Assembly (NCBI GenBank): GCA_016186945.1
Contig: JACPKR010000038.1
Location: forward strand, 32,072 to 96,071
Source: Deltaproteobacteria bacterium
Lineage (GTDB): Bacteria; Bdellovibrionota_B; Oligoflexia; Oligoflexales; Bog-1112
DNA: 64,000 nt
Reading direction: 5' to 3'
This document shows, piece by piece, positions 1,441 through 61,625 of this stretch. The position numbers and the translations under genes are program-made. A model generated the notes under the pieces. That model was not told the DNA's origin and did not search any database. It saw nothing but the letters and a program-made list of their open reading frames with translations. The number at the start of each line of letters is the position of its first letter. Position 1 is the first letter of the stretch.

Positions 1441-1488
1441 GCAAGGAGGTGGTTTGGAGGAAACTGCGCAGCTGGTTCCTCCAAGAAT
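1441..1488 (+). repeat. Dispersed hairpin element, core only
   Basis: Core of the dispersed element (GCAAGGAGGTGG, then the TTGGAGGAA...TTCCTCCAA hairpin). Both terminal inverted repeats are missing. It lies between the divergent GH1 and nhaC genes. Confidence 0.85.
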
Positions 1489-1573: not shown

Positions 1574-3094
1574 ATGCATGACGATGTTCGTTGCCGAAGT
1601 TTGTGGCTCGCTCTGACTCCTATGTTGTTTCTTGTCACATTGTTAGCTTTCAATCTCAAACTTTACGGTGACGGAGCAGCCGCTGGCCCTAACCAGGTTG
1701 CCCTTCTTTTGTCTGCTATGTTTGCAACATGCGTTGGTGTTTTTGCCTTGGGCATTCCCTATAAAAACATTGAGTCTGCCATCCTTGAATCTACAAGTCA
1801 TATTTTGCAGGCTATTCTCATCCTGTTGGTGGTGGGAGCTTTGATCAGCCTTTGGATACTGAGTGGAATCGTTCCGACTCTGATTTATTATGGCTTGAAG
1901 CTTCTCTCTTCCTCGATTTTTCTTCCCGTATCATGTGTCATTTGTACGATTGTCTCGCTTGCGACTGGTTCCAGTTGGTCGACCGCGGGAACGGTTGGAG
2001 TCGCCTTGATTGCAGTGGGCAAGGCACTTGGAATTCCCGAAGGCCTGGTCGCAGGTGCCATCATTTCCGGAGCATATTTTGGGGACAAGATGTCTCCTCT
2101 TTCCGACACAACCAACATGGCTTCTGCTATGGCCGGCGTCGATCTTTTTGACCACGTCAGACATATGCTTTACACAACCGTTCCTGCTTACACATTGGCT
2201 ATTCTGGGGTTTGTAATCACCGGGTTCTTCGTCACTCCCGCAGGGGGGGCGGACGGGAACATAACGGAAGTCCTTGGCGTCATCACTCAGAATTTCAACG
2301 TCGGACCACAGCATTTGTTTGTTCCGCTCCTGGTCTTGTTTCTCATAAGAAGGAAGATAGCTGCTTTACCTGCTTTGGCTGTAGGCTGCGTGCTCGCAGT
2401 TCCGTCAGCACTTCTATTTCAGCAACAATTTTTGCATCAAACTTTAGGAGAATCTTACGATGGCGCCAGTGTGTTCAAAATGATTATAAGCACAGCTGCC
2501 AACGGCTTCTCCAGCAAGACGGGATCGAGCTTGGTCGACGGCCTTCTCTCACAGGGGGGAATTTCGAAGATGCTAAGCACGCTTTGGCTCTTGATATCAG
2601 CGATGGTGTTCGGGGGAGCTCTGGAAGGATCGGGCATGTTGGCGCGTATTTCCCAAGCTTTGCTCAGCAGTGTCAGGAAAACGGTGAGCCTGATCGGAGC
2701 AACCCTGGCCAGCTGCCTTTTTGTCAACATGACTGTCGGTGACCAGTACCTTGCCATTGTCCTACCGGGCCGCATGTTTCGTTCGATCTATGCACGATAT
2801 AAACTCGATGCGCGCAATTTATCCCGCGCTCTCGAAGATGCCGGGACGGTTACGTCTGTGCTCGTGCCTTGGAACTCGTGCGGAGCCTACCATGCTGCCA
2901 CTCTGGGAGTGGCGACCTTGACGTACTTGCCGTTCTGCTTTTTCAACATTGCTAGCCCCTTGGTTTCGTTCGCTCTTGCTGCCCTTGGTTGGACAATCCT
3001 GAAGAGTTCAGAGAGCCAAGAAGAACAGAAATCGGATGCGATTTCCATTCCGGACCAAAAAAGGGTATCGTCATTTAGTGAACGTAATGCGTAA
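1574..3094 (+). CDS. nhaC: NhaC-family Na+/H+ antiporter
   Basis: Inner-membrane sodium/proton antiporter of 506 residues with about a dozen hydrophobic segments, a normal length for NhaC. The family signature is clear around residues 165-190 (SGAYFGDKMSPLSDTTNMAS), including the charged residues within the membrane region. It should use the proton gradient to expel Na+ and control internal pH. The ATG at 1574 has only a weak upstream ribosome-binding site. The last two residues and the TAA stop (Asn-Ala-stop, AAT GCG TAA) are read from the terminal inverted repeat of the dispersed element that begins at 3084, so the original C-terminus may have differed. Confidence 0.9.
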   Translation: MHDDVRCRSLWLALTPMLFLVTLLAFNLKLYGDGAAAGPNQVALLLSAMFATCVGVFALGIPYKNIESAILESTSHILQAILILLVVGALISLWILSGIVPTLIYYGLKLLSSSIFLPVSCVICTIVSLATGSSWSTAGTVGVALIAVGKALGIPEGLVAGAIISGAYFGDKMSPLSDTTNMASAMAGVDLFDHVRHMLYTTVPAYTLAILGFVITGFFVTPAGGADGNITEVLGVITQNFNVGPQHLFVPLLVLFLIRRKIAALPALAVGCVLAVPSALLFQQQFLHQTLGESYDGASVFKMIISTAANGFSSKTGSSLVDGLLSQGGISKMLSTLWLLISAMVFGGALEGSGMLARISQALLSSVRKTVSLIGATLASCLFVNMTVGDQYLAIVLPGRMFRSIYARYKLDARNLSRALEDAGTVTSVLVPWNSCGAYHAATLGVATLTYLPFCFFNIASPLVSFALAALGWTILKSSESQEEQKSDAISIPDQKRVSSFSERNA

Positions 3095-3163
3095 CCCGCT
3101 TTTGGCAAGGAGGTGGTTTGGAGGAACGCTGCGCAGCTGGTTCCTCCAAGAATTCCCTTGGGG
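3084..3163 (+). repeat. Dispersed hairpin element, left end plus core
   Basis: Starts with the terminal sequence GTAATGCGTAA, which provides the nhaC stop codon. It continues through the AAGGAGG box and the hairpin (with a variant GGAACGCTGCGCAG), then ends near CCCTTGGGG. The right half is absent. Confidence 0.85.
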
Positions 3164-3196
3164 CAGAAGCGATACAAATTCCTGGAGGAAGAGACT

Positions 3197-4286: not shown

Positions 4287-4319
4287 GCTTGGGGGGCAAG
4301 GAGGTGGTTTGGAGGAAAC
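4287..4319 (+). repeat. Dispersed hairpin element, truncated left half
   Basis: Holds only GGGGCAAGGAGGTGGTTTGG and the first hairpin arm GGAGGAAAC. It is squeezed between the alkB stop and the convergent folP stop at 4321. Confidence 0.8.
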
Positions 4320-4320
4320 A

Positions 4321-5291: not shown

Positions 5292-5425
5292 ACTTGGGGC
5301 AAATAGGGAGAGGGGGGTTTGGGGGGGCGAGGGAAGCGTCGCCTCCCCCAAGGGATTTCTTGGAGGAACCAGCTGCGCAGTTTCCTCCAAACCACCTCCT
5401 TGCCCCAAGTGGCTTACGCATTACC
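5292..5425 (-). repeat. Dispersed hairpin element, nearly complete
   Basis: Almost full-length copy with CTTGGGGCAAATAGGGAGAG at one side and TGGCTTACGCATTACC at the other. The outermost bases of the left terminus are missing. It contains the internal hairpin and a G-rich tract (5310-5327). Confidence 0.88.
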
Positions 5426-6146: not shown

Positions 6147-6309
6147 TATTTGAGAAAAAGAATTTGTGGAGAGTACCTTTTTTGAAAAAAAGTTCCCCTC
6201 CACGCCTCCCCCCAAAAAACTTTAGATATTGAAGTTTTTGAAAAGGGGTTTGGGGAAATAACTTTTTTCAAAAAGTTTTTCCCAAAATTGATTATCTTGA
6301 ATACTATAG
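6141..6309. repeat. Second repeat family, complete copy with CTATAGTATT termini
   Basis: About 169 bp bounded by the imperfect inverted repeats CTATAGTATTTGAGA (6141-6155) and TCTTGAATACTATAG (6295-6309). It is AT-rich and contains the self-complementary stretch ACTTTTTTCAAAAAGTTTTT. Its right part (6226-6308) recurs at 27351-27433 with few differences. No coding capacity is seen. It fills most of the gap between the CHAP-like gene and mqnD. Confidence 0.7.
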
Positions 6310-8215: not shown

Positions 8216-8338
8216 AAGGGGATTTCTTGGAGGAACCAGCTGCGCAGTTTCCTCCAAACCACCTCCTTGCCACAAGAGGAACCAGCTGCGCAGTTTCCTC
8301 CAAACCACCTCCTTGCCACAAGCGGGTTGCGTATTACA
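8216..8338 (-). repeat. Dispersed hairpin element, two tandem cores
   Basis: Two minus-oriented cores in tandem (8219-8276 and 8276-8338) sharing GAGGAACCAGCTGCGCAGTT, followed by a diverged terminus GGGTTGCGTATTACA. It lies between the convergent phosphatase and oppF stops. Confidence 0.85.
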
Positions 8339-13905: not shown

Positions 13906-14054
13906 CTACGTCAAAATCGCGTAGGACACTTGGGGCAAATAGGGAGAGGGGGGTTGGGGGGGCGAGTGAAGCGTCGCCTCCCCCGGATTTCTTGGAGGAA
14001 CCAGCTGCGCAGTTTCCTCCAAACCACATCAATGCATTACCTACGTCAAAATCG
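13906..14054. mobile_element. Dispersed element bounded by a 14-bp direct repeat
   Basis: CTACGTCAAAATCG occurs at 13906-13919 and again at 14041-14054. Between them (13920-14040) lies a minus-oriented copy of the dispersed element ending precisely in GCATTAC. The right-hand repeat is the tail of the terminator of the 14089-17172 gene, so the left copy looks like a target-site duplication made when the element inserted. The element itself has lost part of its left terminus and has an internal deletion near its right end. Confidence 0.7.
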
Positions 14055-20148: not shown

Positions 20149-20209
20149 ACATCACACTCCACGAAAAATTGTTTTTGAAATTTGGAATTGATTATAGGGA
20201 AAAAAATCG

Positions 20210-20263
20210 TTTGGGGCAAGGAGGAGGTTTGGAGGAAACTGCGCAGCTGGTTCCTCCAAGAAA
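20210..20263 (+). repeat. Dispersed hairpin element, core
   Basis: TTGGGGCAAGGAGGAGG followed by the complete hairpin up to TTCCTCCAAG. It lies between two minus-strand genes, next to the gspC-like stop at 20269. Confidence 0.85.
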
Positions 20264-20268
20264 CTGAC

Positions 20269-23439: not shown

Positions 23440-24711
23440 ATGACGACGTATTGTGCAAGATTAATTGCATCGTTTGTTCTCCTTTACTCAGCTTCCTTGC
23501 TGGCTACAAACGGAGCAAACCTTATCAGTTCCACCACAGCAAGTCGGGGGATGGGAGGAACGGGCGTAGCGCATTTCCATGATGAAAGAACTGCGGCCAT
23601 TATGAGTCCTTCCCTGCTTTCAAAGTCCATGCTCCCAGACGGAGGGTGGAACTTCGGTCTTGATCTGACGTATCTGAACGGGAACGTCAGGTCTGATGTT
23701 CGCAACTATACCGACACGGTTTCCAGTGGGGAGAAGGAGAGTAAGCACAGGCCTGGGTACATTCCGGCGATCGCTGCCGTTAACCGGGTAAATGAGCACC
23801 TTGTGTGGGGTTTCGTTTACTACGGAGCTGCTGGTTCTATGGTGGACTACAAGGATGAAGTGACTCACAGCAAGCTTAAGGTCGAATACGGAATGGCGCG
23901 CCTCGGTGTAGCCGCGAGTTACAGACAAGAAAAATTCAGCTTCGGTCTGGCCCCTCTCTATAACATGGGAAATTTTGCCATCAATACGAGAGAGGCAAGC
24001 GGTGAACAGTCTTCGCGCAAACCCGACACTCAAGGTGCGTTTGGAATTCAGGTGGGGGCATCGTTGTTTCTCCTGGACGAGTTGACCGTCTCGTTAACCT
24101 ACTTGAGTCCAGCAAAGTTCAAATATAAAGGGGTTGTAGATCTCGATGCCTACACGCTTACAGAAGCTGATGGTAAGCTTGATGACCTTTCCCTAGACCA
24201 ACCCACGGAACTTGCGTTTGGGCTAAGCTGGTTGCCCATAACTGACCTTGGCCTCGCCTTGGATTTCAGAAGCTTAGACTGGGCAGCTACGGAAGGCTTC
24301 GGAGATATCGGCTGGAAGCGTCAACTTGTCATCGCCCTCGGAGGCAAGTACAGAATCGATGCCTTCACTCTGCGAGCTGGGGTGAACATGGCCAATGGTC
24401 CTATTGAAGATGTCTCGGGCGAAGTCGGTTTGGAAACAAGCGATGTCAGTGGGAAGGCGCTCACCAAAGCGGGGATCAGTGGTCTCAACGCAGTCGGCTT
24501 CCCTGCTATCAGTGAGACGCATTACACACTTGGCCTTGGTCACATGGTGAACGAACAATTTTCCTGGGATCTCGCCTTTATGATGAGTCCTAAGGCTAGC
24601 CTTGAGCGAAGCGGCACGGTTACCAGCCCAGCAGGATCGGCTCCTTACTCCTTAAAAACGTCAGTCTCTCAATACGCCTTTTCCGCAGGGGTGAGTTATA
24701 ATCTTTGGTAG
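23440..24711 (+). CDS. FadL/OmpP1-family outer-membrane transport protein
   Basis: 423 residues with a signal peptide, then a long beta-barrel pattern of alternating aromatic and glycine residues ending in an aromatic terminal strand (SAGVSYNLW). The N-terminal region after the signal contains NLISSTTASRGMGGTGVAH, typical of FadL where the hatch region starts. FadL proteins pass long-chain fatty acids or hydrocarbons through the outer membrane; together with AlkB in this window that could mean hydrocarbon uptake (inference). GAAAGG lies seven bases before ATG 23440; ATG 23407 is an alternative. The stop codon touches a repeat element. Confidence 0.85.
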   Translation: MTTYCARLIASFVLLYSASLLATNGANLISSTTASRGMGGTGVAHFHDERTAAIMSPSLLSKSMLPDGGWNFGLDLTYLNGNVRSDVRNYTDTVSSGEKESKHRPGYIPAIAAVNRVNEHLVWGFVYYGAAGSMVDYKDEVTHSKLKVEYGMARLGVAASYRQEKFSFGLAPLYNMGNFAINTREASGEQSSRKPDTQGAFGIQVGASLFLLDELTVSLTYLSPAKFKYKGVVDLDAYTLTEADGKLDDLSLDQPTELAFGLSWLPITDLGLALDFRSLDWAATEGFGDIGWKRQLVIALGGKYRIDAFTLRAGVNMANGPIEDVSGEVGLETSDVSGKALTKAGISGLNAVGFPAISETHYTLGLGHMVNEQFSWDLAFMMSPKASLERSGTVTSPAGSAPYSLKTSVSQYAFSAGVSYNLW

Positions 24712-24758
24712 CAAGGAGGAGGTTTGGAGGAAACTGCGCAGCTGGTTCCTCCAAGAAA
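24711..24758 (+). repeat. Dispersed hairpin element, core between convergent stops
   Basis: GCAAGGAGGAGG and the complete hairpin. It begins on the last base of the fadL-like stop and ends at the stop of the convergent gene at 24759, as though it serves both as a terminator. Confidence 0.85.
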
Positions 24759-25790
24759 TCACTTGCTGTCACTCGAAAGTAGATGAAGGTTGGGAGCGTG
24801 TTCGGATTTTCGATCTTGCGCAACGAGGAAGCGGTGGCCAGGGAGAACCACAAACGCTTCGGCACCGCTTATATTCTTAGGCAATCCCCAAGTGTTGACA
24901 AAAGTCATTTTGTTCTGATCGAGGGAAAGTTCACCAATTTGAGCAATCATCCTGCATTTCTGACTTAGGATGTACAGATTGCCTTCACTATCTGCAGAGA
25001 CCTCGCTTAAATCACAGGGACGGAAGTCTGCGGGAAGTTTCCAGTAATGCAACGGTACGTATGACGTGTGGGACGTATTGAGTGGAAATGTGTCCTTGCT
25101 CCTTATTAACGAACTTATCTGATAACCTTCCGCTGGGTCATCTGCCGGGCCGAATTCAATCATCGCTGCTTTCTCTCGTTCCTTCGCAACCATAATGTGA
25201 CCGTTTTTGAGTAGAACCATACCTTCTCCCAAGGCATTTTCCTTGAGGTCACGCCGATTCCTTGTCAGCTCGAAGTGTTCCAGGTTGATCACTCCTTCGA
25301 CTTCTGTGCTGTCCCTGCGGATGACGACGATTGAGGCAAACTGCTCATGAAGGAGGTATATTCTCCCGGAGGCATCGCTTTTTATAGCTTCCCACTGACT
25401 TGTCATACTTTTCTTGAGCTTGTGACAGTCGGGAATGCGGTCACTGTGACAAATAGCAAAGTAATCAACGATCGAGTCGGTGTAGTCGATGACCTCGGAG
25501 TTTTCCACGAGTCTGCTTGTAAGATTGAAGTGGGTGAAAAGAACTTGGGCGTATCTGTCTCCTACCGCTAAGAGTTCGAAGGTATCGTTTTTCAGAGGAC
25601 GAGCGTCCAGCCCGGATATTTCTCGCAGGGGAAGGTAGAACGTCTGGTCAATCTGTAGCTCGTTTGCCCCCGAAGCGTAATTTTCAAACGTTCCACTCAC
25701 AAAGGACGTGAGGTAAAGGATGACCGAAAAATAGCCCGCCATCATTATGATTCTTATAGGTCTGCGTCTTAACGCTGCTGCACTTACCAT
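24759..25790 (-). CDS. Membrane-anchored beta-propeller-like protein (SdiA-regulated-type)
   Basis: 343 residues with an N-terminal membrane segment (about 10-33) followed by repeating blades of the kind found in SdiA-regulated/phytase-esterase-like propellers, for example REISGLDARPLKNDTFELLAVGD cut into strand pairs, LGEGMVLLKNGHIMVAKE and SEVSADSEGNLYILSQ. It would face the periplasm. Third gene of the operon with the DUF4956 and VTC-domain genes (eight-base gap). GAGGTGG stands just upstream of the ATG. Assignment to the propeller family is by pattern only. Confidence 0.62.
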   Translation of the reverse strand: MVSAAALRRRPIRIIMMAGYFSVILYLTSFVSGTFENYASGANELQIDQTFYLPLREISGLDARPLKNDTFELLAVGDRYAQVLFTHFNLTSRLVENSEVIDYTDSIVDYFAICHSDRIPDCHKLKKSMTSQWEAIKSDASGRIYLLHEQFASIVVIRRDSTEVEGVINLEHFELTRNRRDLKENALGEGMVLLKNGHIMVAKEREKAAMIEFGPADDPAEGYQISSLIRSKDTFPLNTSHTSYVPLHYWKLPADFRPCDLSEVSADSEGNLYILSQKCRMIAQIGELSLDQNKMTFVNTWGLPKNISGAEAFVVLPGHRFLVAQDRKSEHAPNLHLLSSDSK

Positions 25791-27350: not shown

Positions 27351-27433
27351 ATATTGAAGTTTTTGAAAAGGGGCTTGGGGAAAGAACTTTTTTCAAAAAG
27401 TTTTTCCCCAAATTGATTATCTTGAATGCTATA
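27351..27433 (+). repeat. Second repeat family, right part only
   Basis: ATATTGAAGTTTTTGAAAAG...CTTGAATGCTATA matches 6226-6308 over about 83 bases with few changes. The left half and its terminus are absent. It lies next to the broken gene at 27471-27880. Confidence 0.75.
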
Positions 27434-27470: not shown

Positions 27471-27880
27471 TTATTTCTTGCGAAGAAACTCCCGCACATT
27501 GGCCTGTTCCAGGGCTTTCCAATTTCTGTATGCGGTTTCAGTATTGCAGCCGATTGTCTTTACAACCTGATAAGGCGTTTGATCGGGATTCAGATATATT
27601 TGCCAGACAATATCTGCTCTCCAGTTAGCGCCAAACAAAGCCCGCAGTCGCAACCAAAAGTGGTGACGCAATACATAGTCCCGATTGAGTAGTTTTTTCT
27701 CTACCCCTGCAATATCGCCCAGCGTTTATTTGCACCCATAAAGTTTGCTATGCCACCGATCCACGCTTTGGTGGTCATTGGAGAGACTCGAATTAAGGCT
27801 TTCAGACGTTCAATATGGAGAAGGTCCCCATAATTTTGGAGCCAACAAAGGACGAGTTTGAGAGTTTTGCTGTCACCAGG
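27471..27880 (-). pseudogene. Truncated, frameshifted gene remnant with HTH-like end
   Basis: Two coding-like minus-strand segments join only by a one-base shift at about 27703-27706, where CAGGGGTAG gives a stop. An extra G would restore GVEKKLLNRDYVLRHHF. The first part reads TLKLVLCWLQNYGDLLHIER, the second HFWLRLRALFGANWRADIVW, ending in a helix-turn-helix-like TPYQVVKTIGCNTETAYRN. The 5' end is replaced by the repeat element that begins at 27881. I do not recognise the family; it may have been a regulator or a nucleotidyltransferase partner. The frameshift could also be an assembly error. Confidence 0.55.
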
Positions 27881-28043
27881 CGTAAGCCACTTGGGGCAAG
27901 GAGGTGGTTTGGAGGAAACTGCGCAGCTGGTTCCTCCAAGAAAAATCATGGGGGAGCGACCCTTCGCTTTGCTCAGGGCAGGCTTTTCCCTCGCCCCCCC
28001 AAACCCCCCTCTCCCTATTTGCCCCAAGTGGCTTACCCATTAC
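27881..28043 (+). repeat. Dispersed hairpin element, complete variant with internal insert
   Basis: CGTAAGCCACTTGGGGCAAG to GCCCCAAGTGGCTTACCCAT, so both inverted termini are present. It carries an extra internal stretch (about 27961-27988: CCTTCGCTTTGCTCAGGGCA...) also found in the copy at 45010-45149. It truncates the neighbouring gene remnant. Confidence 0.88.
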
Positions 28044-29052: not shown

Positions 29053-29075
29053 TTCCTTGACTTTGCATCAGCCCT

Positions 29076-29141
29076 GGGCAAGGAGGTGGTTTGGAGGAAA
29101 CTGCGCAGCTGGTTCCTCCAAGAAATCCACGGGGGGGAGGC
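29076..29141 (+). repeat. Dispersed hairpin element, core
   Basis: GGGCAAGGAGGTGGTTTGG with the complete hairpin and AAATCC, then a short G-rich run. It is next to the stop of the lipoprotein gene at 29161. Confidence 0.85.
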
Positions 29142-29160
29142 GGCTCTAAACAACTCCATG

Positions 29161-32629: not shown

Positions 32630-32896
32630 ATTATGCATAAGCCACGCGGGGCAAGGAGGTGGTTTGGAGGAAACGTAATGCGTAAGCCACGCGGGGCAAG
32701 GAGGTGGTTTGGAGGAAACGTAATGCGTAAGCCACGCGGGGCAAGGAGATGGTTTGGAGGAAACGTAATGCGTAAGCGACGCGGGGCAAGGAGGTGGTTT
32801 GGAGGAAACGTAATGCGTAAGCCACTCGGGGCAAGGAGGTGGTTTGGAGGAAACTGCGCAGCTGGTTCCTCCAAGAAATCCCTGGGGGGAGGCGGC
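32630..32896 (+). repeat. Dispersed element: tandem array of five 45-bp left-half units plus one core
   Basis: Units of exactly 45 bases (GTAATGCGTAAGCCACGCGG, GGCAAGGAGG, TGGTTTGGAGGAAAC) repeat at 32630, 32675, 32720, 32765 and 32810. The last runs on into the hairpin and CCCTGGGGGGAGGCGGC. Small differences (GAGATGG in unit 3, AAGCGACG in unit 4, CACTCGGG in unit 5) show the array is not perfectly young. Lies between the lipoprotein pair and the thioesterase. Confidence 0.9.
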
Positions 32897-32900
32897 TCCT

Positions 32901-33305
32901 CTAAGCTTTCTGATCCCCCGACCTTCCAAAGGAATCAACGGGCAGTCTGGTGGGATGACCGCGTTCATTGACAGACACAAGGCGGACAAGGCCAGTGACA
33001 TGCGTGCTAGTTACCCCGTTTTCATTTAGACACGCAGTATGGTGGCAGGTGACTACTGCAGGATGGTCGAACACGATCTTACTTTTTATTGTGATGACGT
33101 CGCCATGACGGACGGGTTTGTGGAAGCTAAGCTGAGCATCCTTCACGACGAAGTGCTTGCCTTCGAGGTAAAGTTTCCTCAGTTGCTCGCGACCGAAAAG
33201 TTCTTCCCGAGCACGTTCGAAGAATTTTAGAAAATTAGCGTGATAGACATAACCCGTGAAGTCCGTATCTTCATAGTAAATCGGCACCTGGAATTCACCT
33301 TCCAC
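32901..33305 (-). CDS. ybgC: YbgC-like acyl-CoA thioesterase (hot-dog fold)
   Basis: 134 residues, the usual YbgC length. The 4HBT motif YYEDTDFTGYVYHANFLKF near the N-terminus contains the catalytic Asp, followed by ERAREELFG. These enzymes hydrolyse short acyl-CoA or acyl-ACP and are often linked to the Tol-Pal envelope system, which is not in view here. The GTG at 33305 is chosen because AGGAG lies four bases upstream and the length fits. A TTG at 33365 would extend it into the end of tex. Confidence 0.85.
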   Translation of the reverse strand: MEGEFQVPIYYEDTDFTGYVYHANFLKFFERAREELFGREQLRKLYLEGKHFVVKDAQLSFHKPVRHGDVITIKSKIVFDHPAVVTCHHTACLNENGVTSTHVTGLVRLVSVNERGHPTRLPVDSFGRSGDQKA

Positions 33306-36696: not shown

Positions 36697-39045
36697 TTAC
36701 GAGGAAATTTTTCTCAAGATCGGCAAAACACATCCGGCGATAAAATAGACCGTAAGAGCTGCGGAAAAGGTCACGGTGAAGCCGAAATGCAGGGTACCGA
36801 TCTGAGCCAGGATCGAGCTTAACACAGAAACACTGCCGTTAATGGCCCAAGCCCAGGAGACATAGTGAGAGGATGCCTCGGCGATCCTTTGAATTCCCAA
36901 GACAAACGGAAAGCCCATCAGAAATGCCAAGGGGACAATCAAACCTACGATCGCAAGTAGGTCCACCCCGGGCGGAAATGAAGGGGCCACTCTCGCCAAG
37001 GCAGACAATGCAAAGCACAGAACGCCGCCGTACGCGCAAAGAACGGTGAATAAGCCCAGCCCCCACACTGTTGCCGGCTCCTTTGATGCCAGTTTCTTGG
37101 CTCCCAGTGCTCCCAATCCTCCCCCCACCAGGAAAGAAGAAATCCCAATGGACACAGCCAAAACGCTTTGTCCAAGAAGCAGCTTCAGTTTTTCAATCAC
37201 GGCAATCTCAATCACAATAAAAGAGAAACCAATCGCTGAAAAATAAATCGCAAATGCAAGCAGTGACCCTGGTGACGCTTTCAGGCGCGCATGGCTCAAA
37301 GGCCATAAGGGCAAGAGGATAAAAAGGATGCTACAAATCGCTGCCATAAAAAGTGAGGCCCATAAGTGGAAGTAATCCGCTTCCACTGGGAAAAAACGTG
37401 GGTTCATGCCCTTACGTACCCAGTCTCCAAAGAAGGAAAGCTTGCTGGAATTGAGAAAATGAGGGCTGTCAAAGTTTGGCACCGTCAAGTCGAAGGGGTA
37501 AGCCTCCACGAATTCGTGGACGGCCTCTTCATTTTCTTGAGCAAGAAGTGTGTAAACGTTGGACGCTCCCTCCAGGGGATAAAGCACCCGAAAGGCGTTG
37601 CGGTTACAAAATGATTCGATGCGTTGTTCTTCCTCCCGCAGAGGGCTTGTCCCCGCAAGGATTAAAACGGTCTGCAAACTTTCGATCACTAAGCTTGAAT
37701 CACGAGGGAAGGTATCCAGGATCATGCGCCAGGCTTTTAAGGATTCCTTCGCCGGAAAATGGTTCCAAAGGGAAATCGCGAATAGGCCCCCAGGTGCCAA
37801 TCTTTCTCGATAGGTCTGGAACATTTCGAGAGTGAAGGCTTCCTGACTGTCATTTTGAGAACCTAGGAATGCTGACGGGCTTCCCAGGGTGTCGGATAGG
37901 TGGATGATATCATAGGACGCTTCCGACCCCATGAGGGAGAGGGGGGAATCGGGGGGCGAGTGAAGCATCTCTTCCCCAAAAGGAGGCATAAAGGCAGGCT
38001 CTAAACTTCCGAGGAAATCGAAAAGCTTGCGATTGCGTTCCACCACCGTCAGCGAGGTGACATTGTGAAACCTTGCGAGCCGTACCAGATCGCCACCACC
38101 TAACCCCACTTGGAGAACCTTGGCCTTCTCTCTTAGTTTATACGGCAGGCTTTCGGGCGTGTGTTCGAAGTACTGCCAGTCTTCTTCCCCACCCGATCCC
38201 TGTGTGACAGCGAAGAACGTTCCTCCGTTGATGAAAAGTCCCCATTGTTTCGGCACCACACCTTCAAAGTACAAACTGAGGCCGGGAGCGTAACGAAAAG
38301 GGATGCGAGCCGACTCGACAAGGGAAATCTGTGCATAGGCTGATGAACTTTCCGCAAGAACCCGTGTCTCAGGTACAAACATTGCTTTTGCTAGCGGCTT
38401 GTAAGACGTTGAACTCGGGGACCAGTCTTTGGGGGAAATAACGAAGAGAAAAACCAGAAATCCAGAAAACGCACCGAGGAGTTTCCCTAAGTTTAACGGT
38501 GTAATGACTACGAAAGACAGGACACCCAATAAACTTGCCGCTGCCAGAGCTTTCCCGGGTGCCAGAATTTCGAGAAACACAAAGGCACACAAGCCCCCCA
38601 AACCGGCTCCCACAAGATCAGAAAAATAAACGCGATGCAGTTGCTCCGGTCTGAACACCATAGCAAGATTGATACAGTTGGAGACGAAAAAGAAAGGTAG
38701 AGATAACGCGCAGAAATACAGGAAAAGATAAAGGAGCGGGCGCCAACCCCAAAGCAGTTCGTTCGGGTTGTAATCAAAGGTCGTGACTAGGAGAAAACTC
38801 AAAACTGAGCTAATCGAAAACAACAATGAATTGTAAGCAAGGAACGAAAATGGATCTGCCTTGTCGTGGAATTTTTTCAGGTAACTCAGAAAAGACCCGC
38901 TATAACCAAAACCCAGCAAGGCTAGAGAAATGATTACACCAATTACGGAACTTTCCTGCACGATGGCAAGAAGCCGAAAAAGAACAATTTCGTAGGTCAG
39001 ACCTGCGCATGAGATCCCAAATACGAATAAGAACAGTCTATTCAT
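36697..39045 (-). CDS. Membrane protein with spermidine-synthase-like domain
   Basis: 782 residues with membrane bundles on both sides of a soluble Rossmann domain (about 305-520). The S-adenosyl-binding-type motif VLQVGLGGGDLVRLARF, then VVERNRKLFDFL, places the domain in the spermidine-synthase/methyltransferase superfamily; fusions with MFS-like membrane segments are a known arrangement, but substrates are unknown. Part of the loop after this motif (about residues 356-371, encoded at 37934-37979) is derived from the dispersed repeat element. The ATG at 39045 overlaps the pcm stop, so the two are coupled. Confidence 0.8.
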   Translation of the reverse strand: MNRLFLFVFGISCAGLTYEIVLFRLLAIVQESSVIGVIISLALLGFGYSGSFLSYLKKFHDKADPFSFLAYNSLLFSISSVLSFLLVTTFDYNPNELLWGWRPLLYLFLYFCALSLPFFFVSNCINLAMVFRPEQLHRVYFSDLVGAGLGGLCAFVFLEILAPGKALAAASLLGVLSFVVITPLNLGKLLGAFSGFLVFLFVISPKDWSPSSTSYKPLAKAMFVPETRVLAESSSAYAQISLVESARIPFRYAPGLSLYFEGVVPKQWGLFINGGTFFAVTQGSGGEEDWQYFEHTPESLPYKLREKAKVLQVGLGGGDLVRLARFHNVTSLTVVERNRKLFDFLGSLEPAFMPPFGEEMLHSPPDSPLSLMGSEASYDIIHLSDTLGSPSAFLGSQNDSQEAFTLEMFQTYRERLAPGGLFAISLWNHFPAKESLKAWRMILDTFPRDSSLVIESLQTVLILAGTSPLREEEQRIESFCNRNAFRVLYPLEGASNVYTLLAQENEEAVHEFVEAYPFDLTVPNFDSPHFLNSSKLSFFGDWVRKGMNPRFFPVEADYFHLWASLFMAAICSILFILLPLWPLSHARLKASPGSLLAFAIYFSAIGFSFIVIEIAVIEKLKLLLGQSVLAVSIGISSFLVGGGLGALGAKKLASKEPATVWGLGLFTVLCAYGGVLCFALSALARVAPSFPPGVDLLAIVGLIVPLAFLMGFPFVLGIQRIAEASSHYVSWAWAINGSVSVLSSILAQIGTLHFGFTVTFSAALTVYFIAGCVLPILRKISS
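37934..37979 (-). repeat. Fragment of the dispersed element inside a coding region
   Basis: AGGGAGAGGGGGG...GGGGGGCGAGTGAAGC...TCCCC matches the outer half of the element, most closely the copy at 13920-14040 (GAGTGAAGC is shared). It is read in frame as part of the spermidine-synthase-like protein. Confidence 0.75.
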
Positions 39046-39852: not shown

Positions 39853-39998
39853 GTAATGCGTAAGCCACTTGGGGCAAGGAGGTGGTTTGGAGGAAACTGC
39901 GCAGCTGGTTCCTCCAAGCAATCCCTTGGGGGGGCGACGGTTCCCTCGCCCCCCCAAATCCCCCTCTCCCTATTTGCCCCAAGTGGCTTACGCATTCC
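39853..39998 (+). repeat. Dispersed hairpin element, complete reference copy (146 bp)
   Basis: Cleanest full copy: GTAATGCGTAAGCCACTTGG-GGCAA at the left and TTGCCCCAAGTGGCTTACGC-ATTCC at the right. In between: AAGGAGG, the hairpin, AATCCCTTGGGG and a C-rich tract. Its right terminus supplies the stop of the gene at 39988. Confidence 0.92.
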
Positions 39999-40986
39999 AA
40001 ATATCGTCAACCGGCTCATCTTCGTTGCGCATGGAAAGGCCAACGATGCGAGGTCGGAGGGAAGGAGGAAGTATGTCGGGATTGACAACGGGCATCTGTC
40101 TACGAAGTGGAGAAGGGTTGCGCACAGAAAAATCTAATGATGCTAAGATGGCGCGTGCTATATACCAGACAGCTTGATGATCCGTTCCGTGTGCGGTTTT
40201 GATGGCGACCCCCAAGCCTTGCGGAAAATCAGCGTGACGAATACCTAAGCACAAAAGGCCATCTGCACCTTCTTTGGATACAACCTGCCCCATGCACGCT
40301 TTCATGACGATTGAGTCGACCCGGTTCATGCCTCCAATAAGATAAGGGTTGCGCACCATTGCTTCCCAAACCCAATCACTGTCCTTGTTTTTTGCGAGAG
40401 AACTAAAGAGTGTTGCCAATTCCCTCAACCTGAAAGAGACAGTGGGAAGATTACATCCGTCCTTTGCTATGAATTGCGGAGACCATTGAGGACCGAGTGT
40501 CTGGCGTATGACGTCGATAAATCCTTTATGAAAAGGGTGGGTCGGCAAATTATAGCTCACACGTGGCCACCCCTTTAATTGACAACCTCGCAAGAGGGCT
40601 GAATGCTCACCGGAGCAGGTATGATACCAACGACTAGGTTTGCGAATCTGTTTGCCAAATTGTTGAAGAGGAAGAGTGTGAGGTGTTTGCACCAAACGTT
40701 GTTCAGACGGTCTGAGGATACTTTTCGCTAGTTCCAGATGGCAAGGTTCTGCGTTGTGTGAGGACACACCGATGGCCTTTTGCTCCCAGGTTAAACTCTT
40801 GTCCAGCTCCTTCGAAAAGACTTTGATGTGAAATGGTTTGACTGACGAGCGACCGTAGGTCGTGATGTCTCCCCCGTGGGAATGGATCAGCTTATTTCCA
40901 CTTACCCAAGCGACGGCACCTAACTTTGCAACTTCACAAAGGCCTGCTCTTCGGTATTCAACCAATATTTCCCAATGATTTTTCAT
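39988..40986 (-). CDS. Asparaginase (type II-like, PF06089 family)
   Basis: 332 residues of the bacterial asparaginase_II family: YGRSSVKPFHIKVF, SSHNAEPCHLELAKSIL, TCSGEHSALLRGC and the loop AKDGCNLPTVSF, each matching the conserved blocks. It likely deamidates L-asparagine. The last codons read Trp-Asn-Ala-stop, where AAT GCG TAA belongs to the terminus of the repeat element (39988-39998), so the C-terminal end has been fixed by insertion. The ATG at 40986 follows GAGAGGAAC. Confidence 0.82.
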   Translation of the reverse strand: MKNHWEILVEYRRAGLCEVAKLGAVAWVSGNKLIHSHGGDITTYGRSSVKPFHIKVFSKELDKSLTWEQKAIGVSSHNAEPCHLELAKSILRPSEQRLVQTPHTLPLQQFGKQIRKPSRWYHTCSGEHSALLRGCQLKGWPRVSYNLPTHPFHKGFIDVIRQTLGPQWSPQFIAKDGCNLPTVSFRLRELATLFSSLAKNKDSDWVWEAMVRNPYLIGGMNRVDSIVMKACMGQVVSKEGADGLLCLGIRHADFPQGLGVAIKTAHGTDHQAVWYIARAILASLDFSVRNPSPLRRQMPVVNPDILPPSLRPRIVGLSMRNEDEPVDDIWNA

Positions 40987-44092: not shown

Positions 44093-44158
44093 TTAAAAAC
44101 TTCTTTAATTTCAATAACTTAACTTATCAAAAAGGACAAGGAATTTCTGTGGTGGATG

Positions 44159-44205
44159 GCAAGGAGGTGGTTTGGAGGAAACTGCGCAGCTGGTTCCTCC
44201 AAGAA
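44159..44205 (+). repeat. Dispersed hairpin element, core
   Basis: GCAAGGAGGTGG and hairpin; termini missing. It is adjacent to the stop of the DNA methyltransferase gene. Confidence 0.85.
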
Positions 44206-44213
44206 AGGCTGAA

Positions 44214-45009: not shown

Positions 45010-45149
45010 GTAATGCGTAAGCCACTTGGGGCAAATAGGGAGAGGGGGGTTTGGGGGGGCGAGGGAAAAGCCTGCCCTGAGCAAAGCGAAGGGTCGCTCC
45101 CCCAAGGGATTTCTTGGAGGAACCAGCTGCGCAGTTTCCTCCAAACCAC
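45010..45149 (-). repeat. Dispersed hairpin element with internal insert, right end lost
   Basis: Complete outer terminus GTAATGCGTAAGCCACTTGG and the G-rich tract, plus an extra segment CCTGCCCTGAGCAAAGCGAA (45070-45089) shared with the copy at 27881. It ends at CCAAACCAC directly before the nagZ stop. Confidence 0.88.
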
Positions 45150-45151
45150 TT

Positions 45152-46180
45152 TTAAAAAATCCTTTGTTTCAGTTTCCTTACACGTTGGAGAGAGGCTTCC
45201 AGATCGGCCTCGGAAAGGCTTCCTTTTTCCAAGAGTTCGAGCACGGAAGCTCTGAAAAAAGAGGGAAGATCAGGGTTAGCGGCAAATTTGGCGATGCGGG
45301 GAGCAGCTTGCGGGTTCTTGCTGAAAAGAACCATGTCGTTACCCGCTCGCAGGGCTTTGTCGATTACGGTCGTGGGATCCCTATACTGTTCCTGAATTGC
45401 ACCCATATGCAAGTCATCGACGATCACTACCCCGTCAAAGTGGAATGTTTCGCGCAGGATCGGCCGGATCAGGGCCGACGAGAGGGAAAGCGGGGCGTCA
45501 TCGAAAGATTGGTGCATGAGATGAGCGGTCATAACCATGTCAGCGGATCCTTTGTCGATCAGAATTCGAAACGGTTCACATTCGCGTTCTGTCCAGACAT
45601 CAGTGATGTCTACCATTCCAAGGTGGCTATCTTTTTGGGCGGAACCATGTCCTGGAAAATGTTTGAGGCATGTTAAAACTCCTGCCTCATGATGTGCGTT
45701 TACAAGAGCGTCCGCGAAGGCTACGACCTTTGCAGTATCGTCCCCAAAGCTTCTACCCAAGCCGCTGATGACAGGGCAAGCTAGGTCAAGGTCGACGCAG
45801 GGGGCGAAGTTTAGGTTAAAACCAAACTTTCGTAATTCGAGGGCGAGTTCAAGATAATAGGTCTGCGCCTCTTCTGGACGGAGGCGTTGGCCTATTTCAT
45901 GGGGCGTGAGGTAGTCTCGAAAACCCTTTTTTGCCTGCAACCTTTGAACACTTCCCCCTTCTTGGTCGATGGCAATCAAAAGGGGCAGGTCAGCCGGTGC
46001 TGCCTGGGCCAAGGCCAGCGTCAAGTCGCGGACTTGGCGCGGGGAGATGATATTGTGCCCAAAGAGGATCACCCCCCCGACCTCAGCTTCCCTGATTTGC
46101 TTTAATAGGATTTTGACTGAGGAGTCTTGAGGGGATGTCCCTTCAAAGCCGACGATAAGAAGTTGACCAAGATTTTTCAC
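45152..46180 (-). CDS. nagZ: Beta-N-acetylhexosaminidase NagZ
   Basis: 342 residues of GH3, which removes N-acetylglucosamine from anhydro-muropeptides during cell-wall recycling. Seen: LLIAIDQEGGSVQRL for sugar binding, the NagZ loop KHFPGHGSAQKDSH and the nucleophile region VVIVDDLHMGAI. The start is the GTG at 46180 with AAGGAG eight bases upstream; that ribosome-binding site appears to come from a remnant of the dispersed repeat (46190-46207). Confidence 0.93.
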   Translation of the reverse strand: MKNLGQLLIVGFEGTSPQDSSVKILLKQIREAEVGGVILFGHNIISPRQVRDLTLALAQAAPADLPLLIAIDQEGGSVQRLQAKKGFRDYLTPHEIGQRLRPEEAQTYYLELALELRKFGFNLNFAPCVDLDLACPVISGLGRSFGDDTAKVVAFADALVNAHHEAGVLTCLKHFPGHGSAQKDSHLGMVDITDVWTERECEPFRILIDKGSADMVMTAHLMHQSFDDAPLSLSSALIRPILRETFHFDGVVIVDDLHMGAIQEQYRDPTTVIDKALRAGNDMVLFSKNPQAAPRIAKFAANPDLPSFFRASVLELLEKGSLSEADLEASLQRVRKLKQRIF

Positions 46181-48557: not shown

Positions 48558-48579
48558 CAAGCCCTCCTCTGGGGAATGC

Positions 48580-48707
48580 CCCAAGGAATTTCTTGGAGGA
48601 ACCAGCTGCGCAGTTTCCTCCAAACCACCTCCTTGCCACAAGCCCGGTATTCTTGGAGGAACCAGCTGCGCAGTTTCCTCCAAACCACCTCCTTGCTACA
48701 AAGGGGT
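48580..48707 (-). repeat. Dispersed hairpin element, two tandem cores
   Basis: Two cores separated by AGCCCGGTAT, each with TTCTTGGAGGAACCAGCTGC and the AAACCACCTCCTTGC box. It lies in the divergent gap between the aminotransferase and aquaporin genes. A 17-codon frame at 48733-48786 follows but looks incidental. Confidence 0.85.
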
Positions 48708-48800
48708 GCCACAAGAAGAGGATACTATCGCATGAAGAAATCACTCGCAAAGACAATTGGGACATTTTACTATTCTTCCACCTGATGAGGAGAGCGGCAT

Positions 48801-50697: not shown

Positions 50698-50751
50698 CGC
50701 AACCGCCTGTCGTGCGAGACTTGGCTTCGTTAACACTCTAGTGTATCAGGA

Positions 50752-50850
50752 AAGGGAGAGGGGGGGTTGGGGGGGCGAGTGAAGCGTCGCCTCCCCCGGA
50801 TTTTTTGGAGGAACCAGCTGCGCAGTTTCCTCCAAACCACCTCCTTGCCA
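50752..50850 (-). repeat. Dispersed hairpin element, GAGTGAAGC variant
   Basis: AAGGGAGAGGGGGGGTTGGG, then CGAGTGAAGCGTCGCCTCCC, then the hairpin and CCTCCTTGCC. Both outer termini are missing. It separates tonB from the phosphate permease. Confidence 0.85.
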
Positions 50851-54461: not shown

Positions 54462-54655
54462 AGGGGCAAGGAGGTAATGGGTAAGCCACTTGGGGCAAGG
54501 AGGAGGTTTGGAGGAAACTGCGCAGCTGGTTCCTCCAAGAAATGCCTTGGGGGAGCGACGGTTCCCTCGCCCCCCCACCCCCCCACCCCCCCCTCTCCCC
54601 CAATTTGCCCCAAGTGGCTTACGCATTACCTTGCGCAGCTGGTTCCTCCAAGAAA
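54462..54655 (+). repeat. Dispersed hairpin element, rearranged complete copy with extra core
   Basis: GGGGCAAGGAGGTAATGGGT: a left end appears twice. Then comes a full element to GGCTTACGCATTACC, followed by another hairpin arm (TGCGCAGCTGGTTCCTCCAA). It looks like two elements recombined. The CCCCCCACC tract is expanded. Confidence 0.88.
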
Positions 54656-54686
54656 AGCCTTGGGGAAGGAAGGACGTTTGAGAACG

Positions 54687-56053: not shown

Positions 56054-56115
56054 GGATTTCTTGGAGGAACCAGCTGCGCAGTTTCCTCCAAACCACCTCC
56101 TTGCTCCGAGTGGCA
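56054..56115 (-). repeat. Dispersed hairpin element, core
   Basis: GATTTCTTGGAGGAACCAGC to CACCTCCTTGCTCCGAGTGG; outer termini mostly lost. It lies in the gap upstream of the histidine kinase. Confidence 0.85.
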
Positions 56116-58203: not shown

Positions 58204-58212
58204 CCGGGCTTG

Positions 58213-58280
58213 TAGCAAGGAGGTGGTTTGGAGGAAACTGCGCAGCTGGTTCCTCCAAGAAGTCCATTGGCTTACGGATT
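58213..58280 (+). repeat. Dispersed hairpin element, core with partial right terminus
   Basis: GCAAGGAGGTGG, hairpin, AAGTCCATTGGCTTACGGAT, so the terminus GGCTTACG is retained but the C-rich half is deleted. It follows murI. Confidence 0.82.
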
Positions 58281-61481: not shown

Positions 61482-61625
61482 GCCGTTTAGGGCACGTAGG
61501 GCAAGGAGGTGGTTTGGAGGAAACTGCGCAGCTGGTTCCTCCAAGAAATCCCTTGGGGGAGCGACGGTTCCCTCGCCCCCCCAAACCCCCCTCTCCCTTT
61601 TTGCCCCAAGTGGCTTACGCATTAC
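61481..61625 (+). repeat. Dispersed hairpin element, complete
   Basis: Left terminus diverged (ATAAGCCGTTTAGGGC), but the remainder is canonical: hairpin, CCCTTGGGGGAGCGACGGTT, C-rich tract and TGGCTTACGCATTAC. It directly follows the lipoprotein stop. Confidence 0.9.

Follow-up and report, generated by a model that had tools for sequence, protein, structure and literature searches.

The closest described relatives of the repeat reported here are the intrastrand triplex motifs of bacteria. Holder et al. (2015) distinguished two classes by strand order, with class I running third strand, purine strand and pyrimidine strand in the 5′ to 3′ direction and class II running in reverse, and the BoxC/PIT/TM-ECO motif of Escherichia coli belongs to class II (PMC4666352). 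The code of purine-motif triplexes comprises the triplets G.GC, A.AT and T.AT, and such triplexes do not form in RNA (PMC4666352). The E. coli motif folds in vitro, and in vivo footprinting did not show folding; no promoter or terminator activity is cited for it, and no function was found (PMC4666352). Whether the motifs act in cells at all has been an open question ever since their discovery in E. coli (PMC4666352). In the literature that we searched, we found no evidence for such triplexes from compensating changes, the kind of evidence that proved RNA structures.

Here we analyse a 64,000-nucleotide stretch of bacterial DNA (hereafter referred to as the window) together with its own assembly, G000 (2.66 Mb in 76 contigs; Oligoflexia, Bdellovibrionota, akin to the predatory bdellovibrios), and related genomes, of each of which about a third was read. 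We document a dispersed intergenic repeat, its MITE hallmarks, the covariation of its stem, its third-strand code, the boundaries of its core and its patchy distribution. On this basis, we consider it probable that the module of about 47 nucleotides (nt), which is also borne by a MITE, adopts, as single-stranded DNA, the fold of a class I purine-motif intrastrand triplex.

Architecture of the reference copy

The reference copy is a full MITE copy of 146 bp on the plus strand (39853..39998), without an intact target duplication, and its ends are GTAATGCGTAAGCCACTTGGGGCAA ... TTGCCCCAAGTGGCTTACGCATT. A sequence-only reading of this DNA had described a 146-bp element with 25-bp terminal inverted repeats (TIRs), an AAGGAGG box, a hairpin and a C-rich tract, and all of these are present. 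The left TIR (25 bp) occupies 39853..39877 on the plus strand and the right TIR 39974..39998 on the minus strand, and a minus-strand gene (39988-40986) takes its TAA stop codon from the latter. On the plus strand, the conserved box GCAAGGA (39874..39880) forms the sharp left edge of the core, and is followed by the proposed third strand X (GGTGG, 39881..39885), which mirrors the purine arm, a 3-nt TTT spacer joining the two (39886..39888), the purine arm GGAGG (39889..39893), the conserved loop AAACTGCGCAGCTGGTT, with inner pairs of which one covaries (39894..39910), and the pyrimidine arm CCTCC (39911..39915). The hairpin arms TTGGAGGAA/TTCCTCCAA of this copy enclose CTGCGCAG. The right half of the MITE is a second module with the loop GGGAACCG (39926..39970, minus strand), which belongs to another hairpin family (family 2), faces the core head to head and reads GGGAGAGGGGG-A-TTT-GGGGGGGCGA ... 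TCGCCCCCCC on the minus strand.

Self-comparison of the window recovered 21 separate loci, in both orientations and as full and partial copies, the same number of intergenic loci as had been claimed, and TIR matches numbered 12 against 0 expected from dinucleotide shuffles. Near-full MITE copies lie at 5292..5424 (−) and 61488..61625 (+), partial copies at 13919..14035 (−) and 50751..50850 (−), and a full copy at 54474..54629 (+) sits inside another core, of which a remnant is left at 54632-54668. Two MITE copies share the same insertion, located in the second module at 27878..28041 (+) and accompanied by a decayed left end at 45010..45186 (−). Other copies are reduced: a left TIR plus core (3084..3168, +), a core fragment (4289..4320, +), the second module alone (37930..37982, −, the strand being that of its match to the MITE profile) and core-only copies at 1441..1488, 20207..20265, 24704..24765, 29071..29146, 44157..44206 and 58209..58270 (all +) and at 56054..56115 (−). 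Two tandem cores occur at both 8217..8337 (−) and 48577..48710 (−), and a tandem array at 32631..32918 (+) consists of four 45-bp units, which break off within the hairpin, and then a longer copy.

The outer layer is a MITE

The element has two layers, a MITE and a core of about 47 bp inside it. The outer layer is a genuine MITE: its TIRs are 25 bp long, its length is about 144 bp (below 200 bp) and it has no coding capacity. Exact 8-bp target duplications flank 13 of 37 near-full copies, where mismatched flanks predict 0.03, and two more of the 37 have 9-bp target duplications. MITEs have also inserted into other copies (window 54474-54629; C23). These TIRs and duplications, with no coding element between the inspected TIR pairs, bear out the MITE form put forward in the sequence-only reading.

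The same reading had stated that no transposase is present. At the level of the genome (assembly 91% complete), we found no longer or coding element with these ends among the inspected TIR pairs, and no transposase with matching ends among these pairs and the transposase loci. Distant TIR pairs at C23 and C16, considered as an autonomous element, are separate MITEs around ordinary genes. The IS66, IS256 and ISL3 transposases, considered as parents, are present or fragmentary and none has these TIRs, the one exception being a MITE near an ISL3 fragment on C10. IS66-family insertion sequences have GTAA ends and 8-bp target duplications, and the present MITE is like them in both respects. Derivation from IS66 was rejected, as G000 has no DDE_Tnp_IS66 gene and the IS66 loci of its relatives are without these ends. 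A plasmid search gave no match, and viral contigs gave none to the 21-nt hairpin. In the window, no Rfam family was matched above the gathering score.

A sharply bounded core inside the MITE

From 5′ to 3′, the core consists of GCAAGGA, X, 3 nt, the purine arm, a conserved 17-nt loop and the pyrimidine arm, and it also stands alone in G000 with unrelated flanks. Among 83 copies without TIRs, identity is 0.65 at consensus position 21, jumps to 0.94 at the adjoining position 22, where GCAAGGA begins, remains at 0.92-1.00 up to position 65 and drops after position 68; the way in which copies were picked favours identity in the stem and loop, not in the box. The 37 distinct aligned cores, which come from three genera, all share GCAAGGA and most of the loop without variation. 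G005 and G007, representing two other genera of the same family, carry the core without the MITE ends. A covariance-model search of 58 genomes of the phylum found three with more than 100 copies each and no copies in the rest; this search alone covered the common core type, the pattern scan of named genomes having used minority types only.

Were the repeats true REPs, dispersed by a Y1/HUH transposase of the RAYT type with the hairpin as its recognition site, this would account for the size of the core, its imperfect hairpin with an unpaired 5′ box, its intergenic location, its opposite-orientation pairs and its high copy number. We nevertheless regard this as unlikely, because the GTAG/CGTC tag is absent, its counterpart being GCAAGGA in 37/37 aligned cores, and because cores are not enriched beside the Y1 genes of G000, G001, G005, G006 and G007, where only isolated cases occur.

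Several local arrangements accompany the core. Tandem units of about 45 bp (window 32631-32918; L045 near 1000-1140) end at or near the hairpin loop GGAGGAAAC and look as if copying had slipped at the hairpin; in G007, the 3′ side has partial repeats of CCCCAGTAAA. A block, CCCTTCGCTTTGCTCAGGGCAGGCTTTT, lies within the second module of some MITE copies (window 27878-28041 and 45010-45186; L074 near 8600) and resembles the G005 repeat CCGTTCGACTCCGCTCAGGGCAGGCTCC. Cores in G007 bound intergenic composites of 220-510 bp with nested inverted repeats, common inner blocks and hairpins pointing outward (L064:10589-10809, L064:17792-18295, L066:9456-9960 and L068:3153-3660). The core at L204:16497 has a normally oriented loop and a box of pyrimidines on the 3′ side, so that box-arm matching is kept although the loop is flipped. 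G005 also contains a multicopy Y1-type transposase of about 250-320 amino acids (MYPRRLIISNNSYAHVISRCHNK...; L108-L113), and most of its copies have no adjacent core.

Three strands of the core change together

The sequence-only reading had overlooked both the two-layer structure and a mirror rule that joins its AAGGAGG box to the stem. In an alignment of the 37 distinct cores from three genera, 92.9% of cells are paired and 54 cells are compensated; neither value was reached in 500 shuffles (0/500), and slid versions scored far lower. The inner loop pair covaries as well, appearing as G-C, T-A and A-T. X has the same length as the purine arm, lies 3 nt from it and is the arm read backwards, as in AGGGAG-TTT-GAGGGA, AGAGAG-TTT-GAGAGA, AGAGGG-TTT-GGGAGA, AGGG-TTA-GGGA, GGGG-TCT-GGGG and GGTGG-TTT-GGAGG.

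A position was scored as agreeing with the mirror where an A of the arm is faced by A or T, or a G by G. Over 35 distinct modules, 151 of 161 positions agree, whereas X permuted among arms of equal length gave a mean of 136.4 (sd 2.7), and none of 20,000 permutations reached 151 (p<5e-5). A direct-repeat reading, which scores 132 against 151 of 161, was rejected; the commonest types, GGTGG/GGAGG and GGGG/GGGG, are symmetric and cannot separate the two readings, and the minority types AGGGAG/GAGGGA, AGAGGG/GGGAGA, AGAGAG/GAGAGA, AGGG/GGGA and GGGGT/AGGGG are decisive. The rule recurred in 650 kb of unseen G005 and G007 sequence (87/92 positions; permutation mean 80, p 0.002). In this family (family 1), X and the arm are short (4-6 nt, or triplets) and the loop has 17 nt; of 199 third bases facing G:C, 188 are G, and those facing A:T comprise 13 T, 14 A and a single C. 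As read from the sequence, this base-facing pattern is the reverse-Hoogsteen code expected of an antiparallel purine-motif triplex. Because neither simple duplication nor inversion of a segment can produce a mirror repeat, its retained symmetry would speak for a structural constraint.

The commonest core type also fits the pattern of a G2 quadruplex, in which the G-rich box and arm (GGAGGTGGTTTGGAGG) would form two layers in place of a triplex. This reading is very unlikely, given that AGGGAG/GAGGGA, AGAGAG/GAGAGA and AGAGGG/GGGAGA keep the mirror without four G-runs, and that covariation extends to the pyrimidine arm, something not required by a quadruplex.

Further families follow the same code

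A loop-blind search for mirror-matched hairpins turned up further families. Family 2, with 8-11 triplets and a 7-nt loop, has many copies of the form GGGGGGAGAAT-CCT-AAAGAGGG-GGGAACG-CCCTCTTT in G005, matching at 11/11 triplets with three loop bases counted in, and reads GGGGGGAGGAT-CTA-AAGGAGGG-GGGAACG-CCCTCCTT in G007. All three strands thus differ between the two genera, from GAGAAT/AAAGAG/CTCTTT to GAGGAT/AAGGAG/CTCCTT. A single G005 copy, GGGAGGGGAG-TGT-GAGGGGA-GGGAACG-TCCCCTC, again has three matched strands, and single-copy changes in three strands were found at L076 and L120; at L120:4843, a second module of the MITE with the loop GGGAACCG, X, the arm and its complement have all changed together. 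The third base of family 2 is G in 59 of 67 cases facing G:C, and facing A:T it is T in 22, A in 33, C in 3 and G in 1. The mirror of the second module in G000 is imperfect, one extra G breaking the automatic 3-nt parse, and its symmetry was judged by eye, apart from the variant at L120:4843.

A generic scan of 819 kb of G000 for at least 6 triplets yielded 149 loci of class I and 3 of class II, compared with 1 of each in a second-order Markov control. These data bear on the reading that the mirror is a by-product of purine-rich low-complexity sequence, in which any G-rich box matches G-rich arms. We judge that reading to be highly improbable: the Markov control gave 1 locus against 149, the equal-length permutation was beaten, the effect was repeated out of sample, and T faces A:T and almost never G:C.

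Family 2 copies cluster in G005, with at least five in the 14-kb contig L200. A further dispersed repeat of G000, CTATAGTATTTGAGAAAAAGAATTTGTGGAGAGGACC...GTTTTTGAAAAGGGGCTTGGGGAAA...TTTTTCCCC, occurs in the window (6154-6290 and 27376-27420) and at L047, L054, L121, L177, L182 and L183; the second half of CTATAGTATTTGAGAAAAAGAATTTGTGGAGAGGACC...TTTTTCCCC is mirror-symmetric (AAAAGGGG-CTT-GGGGAAA) and may represent a third triplex-type family.

Abundance and placement relative to genes

The repeat is abundant far beyond the window, as the check on whole-genome copies proposed in the sequence-only reading revealed. We counted 202 elements in 819 kb of G000, or 247 per Mb, corresponding to about 650 per genome; a search of the entire assembly gave many near-identical copies and about 500 candidates, and the start of the TIR, taken as a 14-bp pattern, has 213 occurrences across the genome against 0 for its reversed control. 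Using gene calls from a purpose-made simple hexamer model, we found only 9 of the 202 elements inside genes. In tandem spacers, elements lie a median of 6-7 bp past the stop codon and 52-87 bp ahead of the following start codon, and there is a 2-fold enrichment in convergent spacers. The nearly constant place at gene 3′ ends that had been claimed therefore stands for tandem and convergent spacers, which adjoin stops, but not for the 52 of 184 elements (28%) flanked by divergent gene pairs, where there is no gene 3′ end. Orientation relative to the flanking genes is about equal (33:42), and GC skew revealed no replication-strand bias (43:42). The stop codons of 37 genes fall inside an element, and the TIR, read from its sequence, can end a reading frame in two of its phases.

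If the element were an ordinary MITE, with palindromic ends and GC-rich hairpins that terminate transcription in both directions or stabilize mRNA 3′ ends, this would explain why copies adjoin stop codons in tandem and convergent spacers and why 37 genes stop inside the element; furthermore, the whole element is very stable as an RNA fold (z about −9.6), and the second (right-hand) module of two copies scored as terminator-like. However, the 28% of elements between divergent genes, the 33:42 orientation and the core itself, which has no T-run after it on either strand and was not picked up as terminator-like, speak against the 'mobile terminator or mRNA-end structure' suggested earlier. Terminator-like sites in 20 kb were hardly more frequent than in shuffles (28 against 24), and proximity to stops is also expected from tolerated insertion away from promoters. 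A role in RNA would, moreover, leave the third-strand code unexplained, since RNA does not adopt purine-motif triplexes (PMC4666352). We consequently hold this reading to be improbable, and the intergenic placement, near stops and away from starts, looks like tolerated insertion instead of a 3′-end device.

Proposed folding and mobility

In the triplex model that we favour, X would fold back through the 3-nt turn and lie antiparallel along the purine arm of the loop-topped hairpin. In G000, the 144-bp MITE also carries the core, opposed to a second module of the triplex type, and it has moved with 8-bp target duplications, presumably by means of a transposase since lost or not assembled. The single-stranded DNA could arise on the lagging strand, by extrusion under supercoiling or as an intermediate of transfer. 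As purine-motif triplexes are not formed in RNA (PMC4666352), the third-strand code favours selection acting at the DNA level, in the simplest case while the DNA is single-stranded; we infer that the triplex is present in cells and that the folded single-stranded DNA is what is kept. Conservation of the loop and the box hints at a protein that recognizes them, and such a putative protein probably reads both, as RAYTs read REPs; our search for such a partner, Y1 genes in five genomes (G000, G001, G005, G006 and G007) included, found none.

That three strands change together across genera and in unrelated families points to a structure under selection. It is conceivable, although we advance this only tentatively, that intrastrand DNA triplexes are both functional and under selection in living bacteria, that in this bacterial family several unrelated hairpin families converged on one third-strand code kept by selection, and that one of them became a transposable module whose folded single-stranded form is read by a dedicated protein. 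The present variants name exact sequences with which the triplex structure can be tested.

Comparison with known systems

The MITE resembles other bacterial MITEs in being shorter than 200 bp, non-coding and intergenic and in having TIRs and target duplications (PMC10969869), and differs from them in that its parent insertion sequence was not found, two triplex-type modules lie head to head within it and its core persists without it. REP elements offer the nearest model for function. Like REP and BIME sequences (PMC3733652), the repeats form short, imperfect hairpins preceded by an unpaired 5′ tag, lie between genes, number in the hundreds and occur in paired arrangements; unlike REPs, they have no GTAG/CGTC tag and no flanking RAYT gene was found, and the tag region of the core is tied to the stem by mirror symmetry.

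The closest likeness is to the PIT/BoxC/TM-ECO motifs of E. coli and others, which are likewise short and intergenic, with a purine-motif third strand, a joint of exactly 3 nt and occasional inverted pairs. Scored here, the BoxC sequences of Table 1 in PMC4666352 follow the same code with a 3-nt spacer (G.G 105, A.T 14 and A.A 14). Unlike PIT motifs, the present repeats have a fixed GCAAGGA box, are carried in a MITE with target duplications and, in family 1, contain a conserved, structured 17-nt loop, whereas the survey of Holder et al. allowed loops of 1-6 nt (PMC4666352). The families described here lie outside the ITxF survey limits (stems of 6-15 nt, loops of 1-6 nt), which are search settings and not a physical requirement. 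Whereas TM-ECO is class II, the present repeats have the class I strand order, third strand, purine and pyrimidine, with a mirror-matched third strand. Thus, with the E. coli motif in class II and the present repeats in class I under the same code, the repeat is best described, as far as its sequence indicates, as a mobile, REP-like candidate class I intrastrand-triplex repeat, known in kind and new in form.
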